Shown here in pieces: positions 11,280-35,119 of a DNA stretch of 39,570 nt (position 1 is its first letter; every line of letters starts with the position of its first letter). The translations under genes were made by a program, and so were the position numbers. The notes below the pieces were generated by a model. It saw only the letters and a list, made by a program, of their open reading frames with translations. It did no database searches and had not been told where the DNA came from. The stretch lies in contig DUBW01000089.1 of the NCBI GenBank assembly GCA_012960135.1, positions 1,000-40,569 of the forward strand. Direction: 5' to 3'. The stretch is from Methyloprofundus sp. (lineage in GTDB: Bacteria; Pseudomonadota; Gammaproteobacteria; Methylococcales; Methylomonadaceae).

Positions 11280-12023
11280 TTATTCCGCGCCTGCTGGTTG
11301 CTCAACAAACTCATCAGCCTTCGCTGCAACATCTAATCTAGCTGCTTTCGCTTCTAAAATAGCTGTTGCGATACTTTCCGTATATAACTTCACTGCACGG
11401 ATTGAATCGTCATTACCTGGAATGATGTAATCAACGTCTTTTGGTGAATTATTAGTATCAACAATACCAATAACTGGAATGCCTAGCTTTTTCGCCTCAC
11501 ACAGTGCATTCTTCTCATAGCCTACATCAAGTACAAAAATTGCATCAGGTGTACCGCGCATATCTTTGATACCACCTAAGCTACGCTCCAGCTTTTCCAT
11601 TTCCCGCTCCATACCCAACGCTTCTTTTTTGCTGAATCGTTGTAGCATAGTGCCATCAGCTTTCATTGCTTCCAGCTCTTTTAAACGGGCAATTGATTTT
11701 TTAATCGTTTTAAAGTTAGTCAGCATACCACCCAACCAACGATGGTTCACATAAGGCATACCACAACGAGCAGCTTGCTCGGCAACCGCTTTACGTGCAG
11801 ATTTTTTTGTACCAACAAACAGGATATTGCCTTTGTTTGCGGTCATCTGCCCAACATAGTTCATTGCATCATTAAACAAAGGAAGTGTTTTCTCTAAGTT
11901 AATGATATGAATTTTGCTACGTGCACCAAAAATATAAGGTGCCATTTGCGGGTTCCAGTAACGGGTCTGATGTCCAAAGTGAACACCTGCTTCTAACATT
12001 TGTCGCATTGATACTGCGGCCAT
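11280..12023 (-). CDS. rpsB: 30S ribosomal protein S2
   Basis: S2 binds the head-body hinge of the 30S subunit. I choose the ATG at 12021-12023 (247 residues, [20 protein letters not shown]), which matches the known S2 start. GGAG lies 6 bases upstream of it; an in-frame TTG four codons earlier would destroy that spacing. Family landmarks are [15 protein letters not shown], the Lys-rich [28 protein letters not shown] and [11 protein letters not shown]. It heads the rpsB-tsf operon and is preceded by a 170-base structured leader. Confidence 0.97.
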
Positions 12024-12196
12024 TCTTTTCTCCAAATTGTTTTCGGAATAATTCCGAAAGGGTTACGCCTCCACCTACCCCGATTGGAAACCAGTTTTTT
12101 TACAAAAACCAGCACCCTACCAATCGTGACGGTAGATGTGAGTTTTAATATGCTTCACGCAATCACTTAAAAGAGCTTGCACAAAACACCAATGAA
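12024..12196 (-). ncRNA. Structured 5' leader of rpsB (likely S2 autoregulatory region)
   Basis: Between the predicted start of transcription and rpsB the leader can form several helices. CGATTGG at 12081-12087 pairs perfectly with CCAATCG at 12120-12126, enclosing an inner CTGG/A-T-rich stem. GGGT...ACCC closes a small helix around GGTGGAGGCG (12060-12080). TTTCGGAAT-A-ATTCCGAAA at 12041-12059 sits just upstream of the Shine-Dalgarno. S2 is known to repress its own mRNA through a conserved leader in gammaproteobacteria; that this is the same element is inferred from position and folding, not from an alignment. Confidence 0.55.
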
Positions 12197-16121: not shown

Positions 16122-16820
16122 TTATAACAAATCCAAAATCAGAAACAAAATAGCCGTTAAACCCAGGCCACAATAGATAACACCATTGACGCTGGTATAA
16201 AGCTTCATATTCCCACCTTCTGGCAGCTTTTTAAATGCATCAATATGTTTAATAGCTGGGTAAGCACCATTAAACTCAAGCGCAACAATCGCAACAACTG
16301 CAACTATAAACGCCAGGGCGCTAAAACTATGCGGGTAGTGAGCAGATGCGCCCATAAAAAATAACATCGGAATCGAAAACAAGGTATTGGTTCTTGAAGC
16401 CAGACCTGCTGTTGCTAATGCTGCCGCAGCTTCTGGTATGGGCTCACCACCTTCCGCCAACTGGGTAGCCGATGCCATAACAATTTGCTGCTTAGGCCAG
16501 ATGATTAGCCAGACGTTTAAAAACATAAACAGCCCTAGTAATGCGCCTACATAAATATCCATAGACATGCCGCCACCACGAATCGCAAAAATGCCTAAGC
16601 CCGTAATTAAAGTGAACATCGCTCCCCAACGAAACCACCACAAAGCCTTGGGTACTAATTTTTGTATCGCATCAGATTTTGCTGCAGGGTCCGCTTCTTT
16701 AAAGTACTCCGTCTGCACGAAGTTAAAATAATAAAGTAAGCCTATCCAGGTAATACCTGCCATAAAGTGTCCCCAGCGCAAAAGCATTTCCACACCGAGA
16801 CTTGTAGTAATTAATTCCAT
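16122..16820 (-). CDS. PuuD-like membrane protein (urate hydroxylase N-terminal domain family), no cytochrome c domain
   Basis: The 232-residue protein is almost entirely membrane-embedded, with about seven hydrophobic segments. It matches the membrane domain of the urate hydroxylase PuuD family (Urate_ox_N): RWGHFMAGITWIGLLYYFNF near the N-terminus, KALWWFRWGAMFTLITGLG, and the central NTLFSIPMLFFMGASAHYPH. PuuD proper is longer, with a C-terminal c-type cytochrome (CxxCH); here the protein ends after the membrane part and has no CxxCH. No other purine-catabolism gene is nearby. Urate oxidation is therefore doubtful; histidines in the helices suggest a heme or metal, but the role is unknown. 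Confidence 0.75.
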   Translation of the reverse strand: MELITTSLGVEMLLRWGHFMAGITWIGLLYYFNFVQTEYFKEADPAAKSDAIQKLVPKALWWFRWGAMFTLITGLGIFAIRGGGMSMDIYVGALLGLFMFLNVWLIIWPKQQIVMASATQLAEGGEPIPEAAAALATAGLASRTNTLFSIPMLFFMGASAHYPHSFSALAFIVAVVAIVALEFNGAYPAIKHIDAFKKLPEGGNMKLYTSVNGVIYCGLGLTAILFLILDLL

Positions 16821-17462: not shown

Positions 17463-18293
17463 ATGAAGCTTTGGCAATCAAGATATAACCCACAATGCAA
17501 AATTTCTCAACAGGGCTTATTAGATATTAGCGAAGAAATCACTCAATCCTATACTCCACATGATACTCATCATCGGCCAGAACTTGTGTTGATGCCTGTT
17601 GACCCGGTTAATCTTTACGCTTACTGGAACCTGAAAGACAGTGATACAGAAAATATAATCGAACATGTAGATAAACAATTGGCCTTAAGAATTTACTCTT
17701 TACCTAACCTCGGTAACGATCCCGCAGCCATTAAATTAAGCTTCGATATCAAGGTAGAGGACCTTCAGAATCAGCAACAGGTGCATTTGCCGCTTGCCGC
17801 TGCAGCCTATTCGGCCGTTATCGGCGAGATAAACGCTGACGATAGCTTTAGTCCACTGGTGGCTTCCGACACTATTCATGTGCCACGGAAAAACCCTATA
17901 CCTGAGGACACACTCAATAACCCTGAGCATGTGGTTCTCAGCGAGACAATACAGAAAGAAGCACTTGTCATGGATCATTTTCTACAGGAAAATCATGCAG
18001 TTGAAAACAATGAAAATACAACCTCTGTCTCCCCCGTACAAGAAGATCATTTTGTTGGCGAGGAAAATACCCAGAATCATTGGCCCGAAACAATCATTTT
18101 AAAAAACTATAATAACTATGGTTACGATTTAAAGGTTTATAAACACGAATCCACACCAGCAACCAATCCTGTTTTATCTCAATCCGAACTAGCAAAACTA
18201 ACAGGCAACACGGATACCCAAGCTAATTCAAGCAAGCCTGATACAAACAAGACTAATAGCAAACATATTTCTGGCCTAGGCCGTCTGTCATAG
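17463..18293 (+). CDS. DUF4912 domain protein
   Basis: This 276-residue cytosolic protein carries a DUF4912 domain at about residues 35-145: RPELVLMPVDPVNLYAYW, then LALRIYSLPN and FDIKVEDLQ. The second half (150-276) is low-complexity, polar and acidic, rich in Asn, Glu and Ser, and probably disordered. DUF4912 proteins commonly occur next to GH57 enzymes, and here the stop codon overlaps the next gene. The domain's His/Tyr/Trp pattern resembles small sugar-binding folds, so a role as a glucan-binding or enzyme-recruiting partner of the branching enzyme is plausible, but no activity is established. No signal peptide. Confidence 0.85.
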   Translation: MKLWQSRYNPQCKISQQGLLDISEEITQSYTPHDTHHRPELVLMPVDPVNLYAYWNLKDSDTENIIEHVDKQLALRIYSLPNLGNDPAAIKLSFDIKVEDLQNQQQVHLPLAAAAYSAVIGEINADDSFSPLVASDTIHVPRKNPIPEDTLNNPEHVVLSETIQKEALVMDHFLQENHAVENNENTTSVSPVQEDHFVGEENTQNHWPETIILKNYNNYGYDLKVYKHESTPATNPVLSQSELAKLTGNTDTQANSSKPDTNKTNSKHISGLGRLS

Positions 18294-19906
18294 TGCCGAT
18301 GAAAAAAGGCTTCCTTAGTCTCATTCTGCATGCGCACCTGCCTTTTGTACGCCACCCGGAATACGAAAGTTTTTTTGAAGAAATCTGGTTATTTGAAGCG
18401 ATTACTGAATGTTATGTGCCTCTTATTCGTTCACTTGAGCGCTTGCAGCAGGATCGGGTTAATTATAGATTAACCCTGTCGCTTTCACCTCCACTGATTT
18501 TAATGCTCAGCGACCCATTACTACAGTCGCGCTACCTAAACTATATTAACAATCTCCTGGAACTGGCAGAAAAGGAAATAATCAGAACCAGCAACACTCC
18601 CGAGTATCAAAAACTAGCCCGGCTATACCGGCGCTTATATCTGGATACACTAGATATTTTTGCCAATCAGTACGACTGTAACTTATTAACTGCTTTTCAG
18701 AAATTTCATGCCGCAGGAAATCTGGAGTTGATCACCTGTGCAGCGACGCACGGTTTTTTACCTTTACTGAATAAGAGCGATGCCGCAGTACGCAACCAAA
18801 TCAACACCGGCATAGAAACCTTTACAAGCCATATAGGCTTTCCTCCGACCGGCTTCTGGCTCCCTGAATGCGGCTATTATCCGGGGTTGGAAAAACACTT
18901 GGAAAATGCGGGTATCAATTATTTCTTTGTTGATTCACATGGTATCGATAATGCCAGTGTCACACCTCGAAACAGTGTCTATGCGCCATTAGATTGTGGC
19001 AATCATGTCATGGCTTTTGCCCGTGACCCCGAATCATCCCGCCAGGTATGGAGTTCTCATGACGGCTATCCTGGAGATTATGACTACCGGGAATATTATA
19101 GTGATATCGGCTTTGACCTAGAGATGGACTATATTGCCCCTTATATTCTTGACGAGCATATACGCATCAATACCGGCATTAAATATCATCGGGTAACAGG
19201 TGGTGATCTACCTAAAGAAATATACCAGCCACGACAGGCGATAGATAAGGCGCAACTGCATGCGCAGGATTTTATCAACAAGCGGCAGCAGCAAATCGAC
19301 CGACTAAGCATTAATATGGATCGTCCGCCGCATATCGTTTCGCCCTATGATGCTGAATTATTTGGCCACTGGTGGTTTGAAGGGCCGCACTGGCTGGAAT
19401 GGGTGCTACGCTTTGCAGATAAAAATTCTAATGGCATCAGAACCATCAGTTGCGCCGATTATTTAAAACAGGTCACAGTGCATCAAGTAGCGACTCCTTC
19501 TACATCAACCTGGGGGGATCAGGGCTATTCCAGCTTCTGGATTAATGAAACCAATGACTGGATTTACCCCTTATTACACAAGGCCGGGGCTGATATGGAA
19601 AAGCTAGCCACCACTTTTAAGGGGGTTAAAGCCAACCCGTTGCAAGAGAGAGCTTTGAATCAAGCAGTACGTTCATTATTATTGGCACAGGCATCCGACT
19701 GGCCTTTTATCATGAAAACCGGCACCACTGTTGAATATGCGACCAAACGCATCACCGATCATTTAGCGAGGTTTAATTACTTGCGTGATAGTATTCGTAA
19801 TAATGCGATTAATGAACGCTATTTAAGCGCTCTCGAAATTTTAGATGATGCTTTTCCCGCTGCTGATTTCCGTAATTTCCACACCACTAAACAAGATCCG
19901 AAATAA
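18293..19906 (+). CDS. GH57 1,4-alpha-glucan branching enzyme
   Basis: Family GH57 branching enzymes make alpha-1,6 branches in glycogen-like glucans. The 537-residue protein opens with the GH57 block HAHLPFVRHPE (residues 13-23). The nucleophile motif is FWLPECGYYPGLE (Glu192) and the acid/base motif is SPYDAELFGHWWFEGPHW (Asp353), followed by a helical C-terminal domain. Spacing agrees with bacterial GH57 branching enzymes of the Thermus type. The start could be the GTG at 18293 (overlapping the DUF4912 stop by one base) or the ATG at 18299; both leave the conserved start intact. No signal peptide, so it acts on intracellular glucan. It is unrelated in sequence to GH13 GlgB. Confidence 0.92.
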   Translation: MPMKKGFLSLILHAHLPFVRHPEYESFFEEIWLFEAITECYVPLIRSLERLQQDRVNYRLTLSLSPPLILMLSDPLLQSRYLNYINNLLELAEKEIIRTSNTPEYQKLARLYRRLYLDTLDIFANQYDCNLLTAFQKFHAAGNLELITCAATHGFLPLLNKSDAAVRNQINTGIETFTSHIGFPPTGFWLPECGYYPGLEKHLENAGINYFFVDSHGIDNASVTPRNSVYAPLDCGNHVMAFARDPESSRQVWSSHDGYPGDYDYREYYSDIGFDLEMDYIAPYILDEHIRINTGIKYHRVTGGDLPKEIYQPRQAIDKAQLHAQDFINKRQQQIDRLSINMDRPPHIVSPYDAELFGHWWFEGPHWLEWVLRFADKNSNGIRTISCADYLKQVTVHQVATPSTSTWGDQGYSSFWINETNDWIYPLLHKAGADMEKLATTFKGVKANPLQERALNQAVRSLLLAQASDWPFIMKTGTTVEYATKRITDHLARFNYLRDSIRNNAINERYLSALEILDDAFPAADFRNFHTTKQDPK

Positions 19907-19958
19907 TACTGCTAACAGTGCACGTAGTTTGTTAATATGCTTAGAATTAGACTTGTCC

Positions 19959-19992
19959 TTAGGCAAAAAACTCTGGCAGCAATAGTGCCTAA
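19959..19992 (+). promoter_or_regulatory. Hairpin directly upstream of the EEP gene ribosome binding site
   Basis: TTAGGCA at 19959-19965 pairs with TGCCTAA at 19986-19992. AAGGAG follows at 19994-19999, 11 bases before the ATG at 20011. The hairpin could affect access to the Shine-Dalgarno or mark a processing point between GH57 and the downstream pair. Confidence 0.35.
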
Positions 19993-20010
19993 CAAGGAGT
20001 ACTATTAAGC

Positions 20011-21516
20011 ATGAATAAAATTAAACTACTGTATGTAGAAAATGTCATCACCCGCAAGGCAAAACAGGTTCAACAGCAATTAACGTTTTTCCTGGCGCTG
20101 GAAAATATTGGCTATGATAAACAGGTTGATATTTTCTGGGCGGGAGAAGATAATGCCTGGCACGAATTAACCGCGCACTACCACAGCATGCTGGGCAATG
20201 CTCAGGAATACTGGTCTGCAAGTGTAATTATAAGCTTAACAGAGCAACAATCACTCCCCGGAAACATTACATTTAACATCCGCTATAGAGTTGCTAATAA
20301 CGAGTATTTTCTAGATAACGACCGACATAATTACCACAGCGAAGCCGATTCCGGTATTCAGCTATTAGGTAATCAAGCAATACAAAACGTTGCTTTTAGC
20401 AATCAGCTACTGAGCGGCCAGCATACTATTACTCTGACTGCCGCTGTCAACCAGTCTTTTGCTGCGAAAAAAGTCATCATTCATTGGACCACTAATGACT
20501 GGAAAACGACCAAAGAAACAGTCTGTGAATGTCAGTGTGCCTACTGGAATAAAGCACAGCACAGTAATGCCCGAAACCCGAATCAATATGGCACGCAACT
20601 CTGGACGGGGAAAATCCATCATACTGAGTTATTTAAAATAAAATATGCCATCAGTTGTGAAAACAGCCAGGGCATAGTCTGGGACAATAATAAATGGCAT
20701 AACTATTCCTTTCAACGAGAACAACTCAAAGTTCTGATACTGAACCTGCATTGCTATCAGGAAGAAAATCAGGATGCCAAGCTCACCACCATAGCGAATA
20801 CCATTAATGAACTGGATATAGACATTGTCTGCTTACAGGAAGTCGCTGAAGACTGGAACGATGGACAGGGTAACTGGCAATCCAATTCTGCCAGAATCAT
20901 TAATGAGCGCCTCACCGAGCCGTTTCACATTCACCATGACTGGTCACATTTAGGCTTTGACAAATATAGAGAGGGCGTAGCATTATTAAGTCGTTACCCC
21001 TTATCACATCAGGATTCGGGCTATGTCTCAGATAGTCATGATAGCTACGATATTAATTCAAGAAAAGTAGTCACAGCTCGAGTTTACGTCCCCTACATTG
21101 GGTTTATCAATGTTTTTTCTGCGCATTTAAGCTGGCTGGAAGGTGGTTTTCAGGAGCAATTTCAAAGATTACGTCTATGGGCTAGCAGCACTAACAGCCA
21201 TGAGATTAAAGCCACTCTATTATGTGGCGACTTTAATATTACAGCAGGCTCAAATGGCTATAAGCAAGTGGTAGCTTCTAAAGAATACGAGGATCAGTAT
21301 TTAGCAGTGAACAAACAGGGTGTATTTGATAAAATATTTAAGGTAAATGATGCCCACTGGCAAGACCTGCTCGCGGATGATTACCGCATAGATTATATTT
21401 TTATGAATAAAAATAGTCAGATACGTGCTACTTCCGCACGAGTCATTTTTACCGACCAGGATGTTGGGCGTGTCTCTGATCACTGTGGTTACTTAATGAC
21501 ATTTGAATCCCTTTAA
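20011..21516 (+). CDS. Two CBM21-like starch-binding domains fused to an EEP-family phosphodiesterase
   Basis: The 501-residue protein has no signal peptide. Residues about 15-115 and 125-235 are two similar beta-sandwich segments. Each has the CBM21 pattern of an aromatic/charged strand followed by W: KQVDIFWAGEDNAWHEL in the first, KKVIIHWTTNDWKTT in the second. From about 238 an endonuclease/exonuclease/phosphatase domain begins, with Asn245 in LILNLHC, Glu277 in VCLQEVAED, His372 in FSAHLSW, Asp407 and Asn409 in CGDFNIT, Asp461 in RIDYIF and Asp490-His491 in VSDHCGY. All catalytic positions of the fold are kept. EEP enzymes cut DNA, RNA, inositol or sphingolipid phosphates; the substrate is not evident here. 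The next gene follows after 21 bases. The CBM assignment is by motif only. Confidence 0.8.
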   Translation: MNKIKLLYVENVITRKAKQVQQQLTFFLALENIGYDKQVDIFWAGEDNAWHELTAHYHSMLGNAQEYWSASVIISLTEQQSLPGNITFNIRYRVANNEYFLDNDRHNYHSEADSGIQLLGNQAIQNVAFSNQLLSGQHTITLTAAVNQSFAAKKVIIHWTTNDWKTTKETVCECQCAYWNKAQHSNARNPNQYGTQLWTGKIHHTELFKIKYAISCENSQGIVWDNNKWHNYSFQREQLKVLILNLHCYQEENQDAKLTTIANTINELDIDIVCLQEVAEDWNDGQGNWQSNSARIINERLTEPFHIHHDWSHLGFDKYREGVALLSRYPLSHQDSGYVSDSHDSYDINSRKVVTARVYVPYIGFINVFSAHLSWLEGGFQEQFQRLRLWASSTNSHEIKATLLCGDFNITAGSNGYKQVVASKEYEDQYLAVNKQGVFDKIFKVNDAHWQDLLADDYRIDYIFMNKNSQIRATSARVIFTDQDVGRVSDHCGYLMTFESL

Positions 21517-21537
21517 AAATAATAACAAGGAAATGGT

Positions 21538-23139
21538 ATGCAACAAATAGCTGAACATTATGCCAAACCTATACACGGTGAACTGGGAGGATCATTTGCA
21601 AGAGTAAATGATTTTAATCATAAATTTTTTCTCCGCTGGGGGAAAATTGACTTTGAAATGTTTCATGGAGAACAGGTTAACCTGAAAGTCATACTCAAGG
21701 TCTACCGGCAGCATAATGTCTGCGAAACTTATGTCATCGATACTGATGCCTATGATATTAAATGGAATAGCCATAGACGCCGCACCCGGGATTTTTATAT
21801 CCACCCTTTTTCCAATTCATTTGGCATAATCAACTGCGTTAAGTTTTCCTTTCTTGTGCATAAAGATGAGCGCTCCATCGCATCGGAAAAAGACTATATT
21901 TTCATGGACTGGAGACAGTTGCATAGCGATGCGGACACCCCTCAATACCGGGAAATAAACGGTCTGCATTCCACACAGAACTACTATCGCACCTATGAGT
22001 TACAGGCTCATGAATTACAATCTGATGTGGACTGGATAAATCATCATTTTGAATCTTTACACCTGGTACCTAAATTTACTAAAGGTCAACCCAATCACCC
22101 CTATCATCCCAAGCGTTACATCCATGACCTGATAGATAAGGTCATTCATAATAAACATGAATTTCAGGATAAGCTATGTACCATTAAAGTCAGTGTTGAT
22201 TGTATTGATGATGCGGACTTTGCCAGTCACTTGATACATGCTAGCGAGCAGGGTGTGTTTGTACAATGTCTGGTCGACTGGCGCAAAATGACCATGACCA
22301 ATAGCGATAATTATGCACGCTTAAAACGTGCGGGAGTCGAATTGCTTGGTGTCGTCTGTAGTCCCGACCACCACTTGATTGAAGTAGAACCCGATATGCA
22401 TACCAAGTTCATTATTTTTAATGATGAAGATTGTATACTCGGCTCATTTAATATTACCTTTGATCGCTGGTGGGCCAACTGGGAATCCGGCATGACTTTC
22501 CATTCTCAAGGCATGTGCCGCTTACTGGATAATATTTTTCAGAGCCAGCGCGGCGGGGTAATTCAGCGTTATGGCGTAGACCCATTTAGCCAATTCAACT
22601 TACTGTATACCTTTGGCAGGCATACCATGCAGAGTGGTGAGAACTACCTGCCTCATCATGCGATTCTGGCTGAAATCAACCGCGCCAACCACTCAATTAA
22701 AATCAGCTTATTTCTGATTGGTGAATTGCTGGGTAACTATAATGACAGCGTTATTTGCGCTTTGATTAATGCAAAAAACAGAGGCGTGTATGTGCATATC
22801 CTATTTAATGGACATTTAGCCAGACAAGGTAAAATTGGTATTGAACGGTCTATGGAAGAAGAACTCAATCGCCCTCTGTTACCTGTTATTGAGCGTTTAA
22901 GAAACTCGGGCGTTATTGTCGGTCTGGTTTATGGCCAGGACGACCACGCAGTACCGTATTCTCCCATCCACTCTAAATACTGTGTTATTGATGATTATAT
23001 TGTTATCGACGGCAGTTTTAACTGGTATAACACATCAGTTTTTTCACATGACTTAGTCGTTATCGCAGCGAATCACGAAGTTGCAAAACCTTATCTCTAT
23101 GAATTTGAGCAAATACAGCAATCGTTCAGAATTTATTAA
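21538..23139 (+). CDS. Phospholipase-D-like protein with two HKD-type motifs and an N-terminal beta-rich domain
   Basis: The 533-residue cytosolic protein has an N-terminal domain (residues 1-130) with a beta-strand and tryptophan pattern, FFLRWGKIDFEMFHG and NSFGIINCVKFSFLV. It may bind carbohydrate but matches no family I recognise. Two PLD repeats follow. The first motif is MHTKFIIFNDEDCILGSFN (His288, Lys290, with Asn295 at the usual Asp position). The second, IHSKYCVIDDYIVIDGSFNW (His478, Lys480, Asp485), is canonical. A KKxxx-free linker between them is helical. PLD enzymes act on phosphodiesters of lipids or nucleic acids through a covalent phosphohistidine. A Shine-Dalgarno AAGGAA precedes the ATG, and the gene is 21 bases after the EEP gene, so they form an operon. 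Confidence 0.85.
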   Translation: MQQIAEHYAKPIHGELGGSFARVNDFNHKFFLRWGKIDFEMFHGEQVNLKVILKVYRQHNVCETYVIDTDAYDIKWNSHRRRTRDFYIHPFSNSFGIINCVKFSFLVHKDERSIASEKDYIFMDWRQLHSDADTPQYREINGLHSTQNYYRTYELQAHELQSDVDWINHHFESLHLVPKFTKGQPNHPYHPKRYIHDLIDKVIHNKHEFQDKLCTIKVSVDCIDDADFASHLIHASEQGVFVQCLVDWRKMTMTNSDNYARLKRAGVELLGVVCSPDHHLIEVEPDMHTKFIIFNDEDCILGSFNITFDRWWANWESGMTFHSQGMCRLLDNIFQSQRGGVIQRYGVDPFSQFNLLYTFGRHTMQSGENYLPHHAILAEINRANHSIKISLFLIGELLGNYNDSVICALINAKNRGVYVHILFNGHLARQGKIGIERSMEEELNRPLLPVIERLRNSGVIVGLVYGQDDHAVPYSPIHSKYCVIDDYIVIDGSFNWYNTSVFSHDLVVIAANHEVAKPYLYEFEQIQQSFRIY

Positions 23140-23171
23140 CGGTGATAAATCTGGAAAATAACATAAGCCGA

Positions 23172-23197
23172 CGTGCAATAACTTTAGCTATTGCACG
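23172..23197 (+). terminator. Probable terminator after the PLD gene
   Basis: CGTGCAATA at 23172-23180 pairs with TATTGCACG at 23189-23197 (9 bp, 8-base loop), 33 bases after the PLD stop. There is no U tract directly after it, but AAAAAAG...CTTTTTT follows at about 23202-23222. I read it as the end of the glucan locus transcript. Confidence 0.6.
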
Positions 23198-23412
23198 CCG
23201 CAAAAAAGCTAGAACTTTTTTACCCCTGATTATATAAAGTTGCTTAGTCGGAGAGCGAAGGTCTCTCTACCTGGCTGAATATCACCAAAATGACCGCCCT
23301 TCTGCATTCTGACCCTGGGTTATTCGAAAAGAAACTGCATAAAAACAAGTCTACTGAGTAGTTATGTCAGAGACCATGCACTTATTATAAGAATTCAGCG
23401 CTTTTAATTTAA

Positions 23413-33808: not shown

Positions 33809-35119
33809 ATGGCTGTCAATCCTAAATCAGAACAAGGTCAGGCTCTTCGTAAATTATTTCCGATGGCAACCATGCCAGCGCAACAATTTAAAGAGTTATG
33901 TGCTGACTGTGATATAAGCAATATGCCGAAGGGAAATTTTTTATTTAACAGAGGTGATCAGACAGACGCTTTTTTTTATCTTATCGAGGGGACAGTTTCC
34001 CTAGAAGCAAATGAATTCTTACTAGACGCCATCAAGGCAGGAACCGATGTAGCGAAATTTTCATTAGCCCACCAGTTTCCGCGTAAAGTATCTGCACGCG
34101 CACTTGATAATGTGCGTTTTATTAGTCTTGGTTTGAATGTGTTTGATAAGACAGATATAGACTATAACGAAATGAAAAATGCTTATTTAGTTGAAAATGA
34201 TGACTCTGAAGCAGATGCGTCAATTGACTGGTTGGCAGCATTATTACAATCACCTGTATTTCAACGTTTGCCTGCGGTAAATTTACAGAAGGTTTTAATG
34301 AGCCTGGAAGAGGTTAAGTTCGCTAAGGGAGAGATCATTTTACGCCAGGAAGATGAGGGAGATTATTGTTATTTGATTAAAAAAGGGAGCTGCTCCCTAA
34401 GTCGAAAAGCATCGAGCCGGGCAAAAGAAATAAAATATCTGGAACTTTCCGCCGGTGATATATTTGGCGAGCACGCGATACTAGCAGATGAGCGGAGAAG
34501 CATGACGGTAACAGCTGACACCGATATGTTGGCTTCGCGTATAGATGCTGAGCGCTTTATTAAGCTTATCAAAGAGCCTGCTGTAAAATATATCGATTAC
34601 AATGATTTAAAACACGAGCGCGAGCAAAATCCTGAGTTAGTGGTTTTAGATATGCGTTCCACTGAAGAATACAAAAAAAGCCATATAGACGGTAGTCGTA
34701 ATATCCCCTTTTTCACTTTGCGGAAGTCTATTCATGAATTAATGCAGGAACCAGGCAAGATTGTCGTGATTTGTGCTGACGGCCGGACCAGTGCTGCGGT
34801 AGCTTTTGAACTGATTAAGCACAATATGAATGCTGTCGTCTTAAATCGAGGCATGCAAAGCATACCCGATGAAGCTGTTAAAGTAATGGATGAAAATCAG
34901 CCTGCGCAAGATGTCGAGGAAATTGCAGGGCCACTAGTAGTTGAGGATGTGGATTCGAAGGATATAGAATCCAGCTTGCAACAGGAAAATCAACTATTAA
35001 AAGCAAACAATGAGCGATTGGCAACTGAATTGAATTTGTTTAAAAAGCAATACAAATTGCTGTATACGCAAACGGAGAAATTAAAAGCAGCGCTGGATAA
35101 ATTAAGAGCCGCTAAGTAA
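33809..35119 (+). CDS. Tandem cNMP-binding / rhodanese / coiled-coil signalling protein
   Basis: The 436-residue cytosolic protein contains two cyclic-nucleotide-binding-like domains, about 15-115 and 143-252. The second has a good phosphate-binding cassette, IFGEHAILADERRSMTVTA, with Arg230. A rhodanese domain follows (about 262-358), with the active-site loop VICADGRTSAAV (Cys322). A charged linker and a coiled coil (about 385-436) rich in Leu and Lys end the protein. There is no HTH, so it is not a Crp/Fnr activator. The first cNMP domain lacks the cassette and may be structural. It could couple cyclic-nucleotide binding to sulfur/persulfide sensing; that is inference. Confidence 0.9.
   Translation: MAVNPKSEQGQALRKLFPMATMPAQQFKELCADCDISNMPKGNFLFNRGDQTDAFFYLIEGTVSLEANEFLLDAIKAGTDVAKFSLAHQFPRKVSARALDNVRFISLGLNVFDKTDIDYNEMKNAYLVENDDSEADASIDWLAALLQSPVFQRLPAVNLQKVLMSLEEVKFAKGEIILRQEDEGDYCYLIKKGSCSLSRKASSRAKEIKYLELSAGDIFGEHAILADERRSMTVTADTDMLASRIDAERFIKLIKEPAVKYIDYNDLKHEREQNPELVVLDMRSTEEYKKSHIDGSRNIPFFTLRKSIHELMQEPGKIVVICADGRTSAAVAFELIKHNMNAVVLNRGMQSIPDEAVKVMDENQPAQDVEEIAGPLVVEDVDSKDIESSLQQENQLLKANNERLATELNLFKKQYKLLYTQTEKLKAALDKLRAAK

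Follow-up and report, generated by a model that had tools for sequence, protein, structure and literature searches.

A CBM21-EEP protein and a PLD-like protein encoded with glycogen-synthesis genes in Methylococcales: a candidate glucan phosphatase and its partner

Positions 17463-23139 of the 39,570-nucleotide stretch of Methyloprofundus sp. DNA analysed here (contig DUBW01000089.1; hereafter the window) hold four open reading frames (ORFs) on the + strand, which encode a DUF4912 protein, a GH57 protein with a BE_C domain, a protein with two CBM21 carbohydrate-binding modules (CBMs) and a catalytic domain of the endonuclease/exonuclease/phosphatase (EEP) fold, and a phospholipase D (PLD)-like protein. 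The best explanation of the last two, to which we assign a probability of roughly 0.55, is that they are a glycogen-bound EEP phosphatase and a PLD enzyme acting on the same polymer. The domains, the conserved catalytic residues, the kinship of the EEP domain with MapP of Enterococcus faecalis, the co-occurrence of the two genes and their order are directly established. Judged from its sequence, the EEP protein is probably a phosphoglucan phosphatase.

The CBM21-EEP protein and its kinship with MapP

The EEP protein comprises 501 aa (20011..21516, +), and CBM_21 matches it in two stretches with a whole-protein score of 51.3 bits, which places it in that Pfam family. The first CBM21 domain (aa 18-109; 20062..20337, +; PF03370 E 1e-5) scores 26.9 bits alone, below the cut-off of 28.9, and the second (aa 125-234; 20383..20712, +), which carries a WDNN...NY motif, passes alone with 35.3 bits. 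A profile of the N-terminal half matched the glycogen-targeting subunits of protein phosphatase 1 (PP1; E 1e-7) and the glucoamylase starch-binding domain 2djm (E 9e-7), which is presumably from Rhizopus; the subunits R3B and R3C correspond to the second domain and 2djm to the first. Within the WDNN...NY region, W224, N227 and Y232 do not vary among the 19 sequences. The orthologues are 51-83% identical to the window protein, and all 19 that were aligned matched both CBM_21 and Exo_endo_phos (E 6e-19 in the window protein), bearing out the initial annotation of an EEP enzyme fused to two starch-binding-like domains.

The EEP catalytic domain (aa 238-499; 20722..21507, +) has its best PDB match, by profile, in 3TEB, an EEP protein that we take to be from Leptotrichia and for which no function is listed (E 1e-30). 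The 3TEB chain is 266 residues long and therefore has no room for CBMs, in which it differs from the window protein. In a phylogenetic tree a single group (96/91) held the CBM-EEPs, the CBM-free EEPs of their family and E. faecalis MapP together with MapP-like proteins, whereas 15 other EEPs fell outside it; an earlier tree without E. faecalis MapP gave the same group (98/91) against 17 other EEPs. Because the tree program flagged long branches, the branching order inside the MapP group is unsure. The trees used 9/19 rows of the EEP alignment and, from 30 PF03372 loci, 17 other EEPs and 4 CBM-free EEPs, omitting L177-L180, L182, L187 and L188 (repeats), L186 (broken frame), L194 (1200 aa) and three places without a locus. 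The long branches L191 and L193 were present in the first tree and dropped from the MapP tree, and the outsiders were judged by eye, without a family scan, to be ExoIII-like or members of other small EEP families.

Thirteen positions do not vary in the first 18 group members and are commonly shared by other EEPs. They include N245, E277, D407, N409, D461, D490 and H491, which are conserved in the window domain and presumably have metal-binding or catalytic roles; EEP catalysis is metal-dependent. Before MapP entered the comparison, 19 further subfamily positions had been chosen that do not vary among the 18 and are not common outside (for example H247, N292, S312, H313, G315, E321, R351, H372 and SDHxG493). 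E. faecalis MapP and the Leclercia protein keep 17/19 of them, the Cetobacterium protein 15/19 and the L. lactis protein, which nearly duplicates a row on which the choice was based, 19/19, against 4-8 in the 15 outsiders, all of which have SDHxP. Of the 13 general positions, E. faecalis MapP matches 12, D271 being Glu there and in Cetobacterium. BLAST of the window domain found MapP and MapP-like proteins at E 3e-17 to 2e-27 and other EEPs at 2e-5 at best. On this grouping and these residues, we assign the window domain to the MapP group. The exodeoxyribonuclease III model scores it at 23.5 bits against a cut-off of 182.55, and it stands on a separate branch of the tree.

These results bear on a second suggestion of the initial annotation, that the EEP and PLD proteins are nucleases held on glycogen granules, perhaps for defence; nucleic-acid turnover would be another purpose. 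Nucleases are known in both folds, and the PLD protein has weak matches to DrmC of the DISARM defence system (PADLOC, E 3e-9) and to NucT (E 2e-6). Against this, the PLD matches lie far below the NCBIfam cut-offs (32.4 bits against 133 for the DrmC model), the EEP domain groups with MapP and not with the remaining EEPs that these genomes encode, the pair usually stands beside glycogen genes, and a plasmid collection yielded 0 records for the PLD protein and no match covering 80% of the EEP protein. We consider this explanation of the pair improbable. For the EEP protein, a nuclease was rejected as unlikely on the tree and the subfamily residues; the PADLOC matches that might speak for a defence role are generic PLD similarity.

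The search of the plasmid collection with the EEP protein returned 62 records, of which the 60 listed cover 50-52% of the query, that is, the EEP part. An origin of the pair from plasmids was rejected on this search and on the empty PLD search. All seven plasmid relatives that were examined directly follow a gene for a IIBC component of the phosphotransferase system (PTS); GH65 and pgmB lie nearby in four, pgmB without GH65 in the stretch shown in one (Priestia), and an alpha-glucosidase in two. The E. faecalis relative among them is annotated as maltose 6'-phosphate phosphatase. Two genomes of the same class show the order glycogen phosphorylase - EEP - PTS EIIC (L117 and L118; families checked in one), and their EEP is possibly a further glucan-linked MapP-like phosphatase.

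The mapP gene lies downstream of malT, its product was once annotated as an EEP-family protein, and it acts on a disaccharide phosphate (PMC3737437). This substrate, together with the presence of most MapP-group residues in the window domain, would fit a small phosphosugar phosphatase for maltose or maltodextrin phosphate, with the CBMs serving only to park the enzyme on glycogen and the polymer not being its substrate. An enzyme with a soluble substrate should have no need of two CBM21 domains, however, and a Pfam scan showed no PTS family among 16 ORFs of the window, so that maltose phosphate has no evident source nearby. We therefore regard a small soluble substrate as unlikely, though the strongest competitor of a phosphoglucan phosphatase.

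Many genomes of the family also encode a second, MapP-like EEP without CBMs, of about 280 aa and with a His-rich insert (L024-L029, L147-L151). In one genome a CBM-free MapP-like EEP gene stands in tandem with a CBM21-EEP gene (G606:C53; L146:9207-11555), with the PLD gene on another contig, an arrangement that suggests a duplication with gain or loss of the CBMs.

The PLD-like partner and the gene neighbourhood

The PLD-superfamily protein comprises 533 aa (21538..23139, +) with two HKD half-sites, and PF13091 (PLDc_2) matches it in two stretches (E 2e-32) and was found in 19/19 aligned sequences. The HKD consensus is HxK(x)4D(x)6GSxN. In a by-eye reading of the 19-sequence alignment, motif 2 (aa 478-495; 22969..23022, +) is canonical and motif 1 (aa 288-305; 22399..22452, +) reads HxK(x)4N(x)6GSxN, with Asn for Asp in 19/19; the motif residues are invariant in 19/19, in keeping with the PLD superfamily. 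The 18 orthologues aligned with the window protein are 71-96% identical to it, a stronger conservation than that of the EEP protein. The N-terminal domain (aa 1-177; 21538..22068, +) is conserved over about 180 aa. At E<=10, Pfam matched nothing in the window copy and a PDB search with the profile came back empty; when 11 members were compared with Pfam, two families each matched a single one (E 0.014 and 0.088). Its description in the initial annotation as a beta-rich domain holds as regards a conserved domain, which may be beta-rich according to a low-confidence model. Structure predictions of the two proteins singly were obtained but are poor, with a mean pLDDT of 47.6 for the EEP protein (AlphaFold, 7 sequences) and 48.0 for the PLD protein (6 sequences).

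The protein resembles NucT, DrmC and mitochondrial cardiolipin hydrolase in its HKD motifs and PLDc_2 domains, and differs from them in having two half-sites in one chain and an N-terminal domain without known relatives. GPCPD1/GDE5 is a glycerophosphodiesterase with a starch-binding domain, CBM20, and is reported to hydrolyse glycerophosphocholine. By analogy, the pair could act on lipids or lipid-linked phosphodiesters near glycogen, as the PLD fold and the cardiolipin hydrolase as nearest solved relative might indicate. The EEP relatives examined stand in sugar-gene settings, however, and Pfam identifies neither of the genes that border the four-gene block in the window as a lipid gene. We give lipid substrates little credence. 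Of the removal of phosphate or phospholipid groups from storage glucan, the first proposal of the initial annotation, the phosphate part is now favoured, because the EEP domain is MapP-like and apart from other EEPs of the same genomes; the phospholipid part has little in its favour, namely the weak match to cardiolipin hydrolase.

In order to follow the two genes across the order, 201 genomes, including that of the window, were searched (EEP and PLD at E<=1e-20, BE_C at E<=0.001). The CBM21x2-EEP gene occurs in 93/201 genomes and the PLD gene in 95/201; two of the 93 are fragments that were kept (G571, G602) and the remaining 91 are long matches, while the EEP-only matches in G583 and G598 were dropped. 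A PLD gene is present in 93/93 CBM-EEP genomes, from which we argue that the two proteins share a substrate or pathway. It lies downstream of the EEP gene (same strand, gap <2 kb) in 83/93, at a distance of 14-716 bases, and in the other ten the two are on different contigs (6) or apart on one contig (4). Every EEP and PLD match falls in one family, which we take to be Methylomonadaceae. Six named relatives of the EEP protein include two methanotroph symbionts of Bathymodiolus and a Methyloprofundus metagenome-assembled genome. In an earlier sample of 61 genomes (own included), the EEP protein was found in 22 and the PLD protein in 26, two of them weak. In a wider sample of 398 Pseudomonadota genomes that included the window's own, the PLD profile matched none of the 397 others at E<=1e-20, the CBM-EEP profile matched the window's own genome at full length and two EEP-only proteins, and Pfam CBM_21 was found in 1/388 Pseudomonadota genomes, again the window's own.

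The GH57 BE_C gene, present in 100/201 genomes, lies within 5 kb upstream of the EEP gene in 56 of the 93 EEP genomes and elsewhere in 30. A random gene would stand on the same strand less than 5 kb downstream of a given gene with a chance of about 0.06% in a 4-Mb genome, a figure that is arithmetic and not a null model. In 37/93 genomes no GH57 branching-enzyme gene was found within that distance, and 36 of these (G556 was left out) were examined for glgA. It stands upstream of the EEP-PLD pair on the same strand, at 36-1438 bases, in 18/36, and 17 of these 18 also have glgB; such clusters often add glgC, a GH57 amylase-type gene and an opposite-strand malQ (families checked in one cluster). 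GH57-BE (within 5 kb upstream) or glgA/glgB genes (within 8 kb) are thus found near the pair in 74/92 genomes examined, in two distinct gene contexts. Because glgA, mostly with glgB, takes this place where GH57 is not nearby, the EEP-PLD pair is tied to glycogen synthesis in general, and neither to GH57 alone nor by chance. The four-gene linkage of the initial annotation accordingly stands for EEP and PLD and only in part for GH57; a strict dependence of the pair on GH57 was rejected. The 37/93 genomes without a nearby GH57 gene go part of the way towards the refutation that the initial annotation had named, a pair routinely found away from GH57/DUF4912.

Proposed activity and its weighing

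We posit that the two CBM21 domains hold the EEP enzyme on glycogen, where it would hydrolyse glucan phosphate monoesters, most likely at C6. The PLD enzyme might open a phosphodiester-linked group, for example glucose-1-phosphate joined to C6, so that the EEP enzyme could finish. With the phosphate removed, the branching enzyme and the further glycogen enzymes encoded alongside could go on using the chains. That the PLD protein acts on a glucan phosphodiester is a tentative proposal, and so, equally, is the scheme as a whole, a two-enzyme dephosphorylation of glycogen in Methylomonadaceae in which PLD opens a phosphodiester side group and EEP removes the monoester left behind. The two-step idea was prompted by phosphodiester groups in animal glycogen, which Lomako reportedly described in 1993. 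A phosphodiester-linked glucan, the third proposal of the initial annotation, would give the PLD enzyme a role. According to a 2025 paper, branching enzymes, a Deinococcus one among them, have a lower affinity when the glucan carries phosphate (PMC13011383), which would explain a pair beside a branching enzyme; the word GH57 does not occur in that text, so the GH57 type may not be among the enzymes covered.

Several observations weigh against a glycogen-bound phosphatase pair. The window EEP domain is 28% identical to E. faecalis MapP over the domain and differs from it at D271, L244 and F408. The IIBC proteins beside the plasmid EEPs belong, in the three scanned, to TIGR02003, a model that names no sugar, and no labelled glycogen gene adjoins the CBM-free second EEP in the loci read. 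The nearest solved relative of the PLD protein, mitochondrial cardiolipin hydrolase, is matched along a stretch of some 60 residues (E 5e-5). The open-licence literature searched yielded no measurement of phosphate on glycogen from methanotrophs. Among the 201 genomes, PLD occurs without CBM-EEP in G005 and G598, BE_C without CBM-EEP in 14, and BE_C was not found in 7/93 EEP genomes. Finally, 18/36 genomes without a nearby GH57 gene showed no recognised glycogen gene near the pair, several of the stretches ending early at contig ends.

The last point could be taken to mean that the neighbourhood is due to chance and that EEP and PLD are unconnected with glycogen, the more so as the genomes are related, so that the counts are not independent events and shared ancestry inflates those of gene order. 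Such a coincidence is very improbable in view of the CBM21 fusion, the two glycogen contexts (GH57-BE and glgBA) and the joint absence of genes: EEP, PLD and BE_C are all missing from eight genomes of four genera in which other members have all three (G458, G461, G528, G546, G547, G554, G016 and G017).

Known systems, wider meaning and other features of the window

The predicted phosphatase shares with MapP its tree group, the residues described above and an alpha-glucoside setting. MapP, however, has no CBM and follows a PTS gene, whereas the window EEP carries two CBM21 domains, has GH57 and PLD genes as its neighbours, and stands with glycogen-synthesis genes and a PLD partner. In laforin (CBM20-DSP) and SEX4 (DSP-CBM21), where DSP is the dual-specificity phosphatase domain, a binding module and a phosphatase domain are joined in one polypeptide, according to a 2009 paper (PMC2714694). 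The same union of binding module and EEP domain is found in 19/19 orthologues here, in which the EEP part is taken as a phosphatase from its kinship with MapP. Unlike laforin and SEX4, the window enzyme is bacterial, has two N-terminal CBM21 domains and is of the EEP fold and not a dual-specificity Cys phosphatase, Pfam giving Exo_endo_phos and CBM families only. The best reading is that CBM21x2-EEP would be a bacterial functional analogue of laforin and SEX4 on an unrelated fold. The regulatory subunits PPP1R3B and PPP1R3C likewise bring a phosphatase to glycogen by a CBM21 domain; their target is a separate catalytic subunit that dephosphorylates proteins.

The same 2009 paper considers a bacterial glucan phosphatase unlikely (PMC2714694), and the 2025 paper states that all known glucan phosphatases are dual-specificity phosphatases and describes the origin of glycogen phosphate as unknown (PMC13011383). 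In the first 300,000 of the 445,374 characters of a review of prokaryotic alpha-glucan enzymes, neither CBM21 nor laforin is mentioned (PMC11046441), and we recognised no description of a CBM-EEP protein or an EEP-PLD pair in the open-licence literature searched. Our results suggest that bacteria, too, may strip phosphate from stored glycogen, a job so far described in animals, plants and protists. If the two-enzyme scheme holds, glucan phosphatases would have two separate origins, on folds unrelated to each other, and the glycogen of these bacteria would bear phosphodiesters as well as monoesters, as reported for animal glycogen. Covalent glycogen phosphate matters in Lafora disease, and a bacterial glycogen-bound phosphatase of another fold would make it a general problem and not a eukaryotic peculiarity. 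Tractable laboratory bacteria could then serve to study the source of the phosphate and its effect on branching, and the EEP domain could be useful as a tool enzyme for glucan dephosphorylation.

The ORF list and Pfam agree with the initial annotation on the positions and strand of the four genes and on the 21 bases between EEP and PLD. The DUF4912 protein (276 aa; 17463..18293, +; PF16258 E 2e-16) and the GH57 protein of the alpha-glucan branching-enzyme type with BE_C (537 aa; 18293..19906, +; PF03065 E 3e-39, PF09210 E 1e-32) overlap by one base, and 104 bases separate GH57 from EEP. Both domains of the GH57 protein score above the Pfam cut-offs, as predicted for a branching enzyme; its best PDB match is 2b5d, listed as an alpha-amylase (E 6e-146), and its score of about 330 bits lies below the equivalog cut-offs for Thermococcales (1000) and Thermus (920). 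No signal peptide was noticed by eye, without a predictor, at the N-termini of the four proteins. The source genome (2.5 Mb, 90% complete) carries one GlgA-type gene.

According to Pfam, the four genes are flanked on the opposite strand by a gene for a Urate_ox_N-matching protein upstream and a SpoU rRNA methylase gene downstream. A terminator-like hairpin of 14 pairs (23169..23200, -) lies between the PLD gene (+) and the methylase gene (-); it comes from a consensus scan alone, which found 10 such sites in the region against 5.3 expected. At one locus, two adjacent matches to the SpoU/RlmB methylase gene were seen, one of them partial (L060:12226-13802). The Urate_ox_N match in the window (16122-16820, -) is partial (E 7e-18), and a homologue stands beside GlnD in two relatives (L058, L081). 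Elsewhere in the window, a t44 RNA (Rfam RF00127, 67 bits; 12062-12159, -) lies just upstream of a - strand ORF (11280-12035), and one protein (33809-35119) combines two cyclic-nucleotide-binding stretches with a rhodanese domain.

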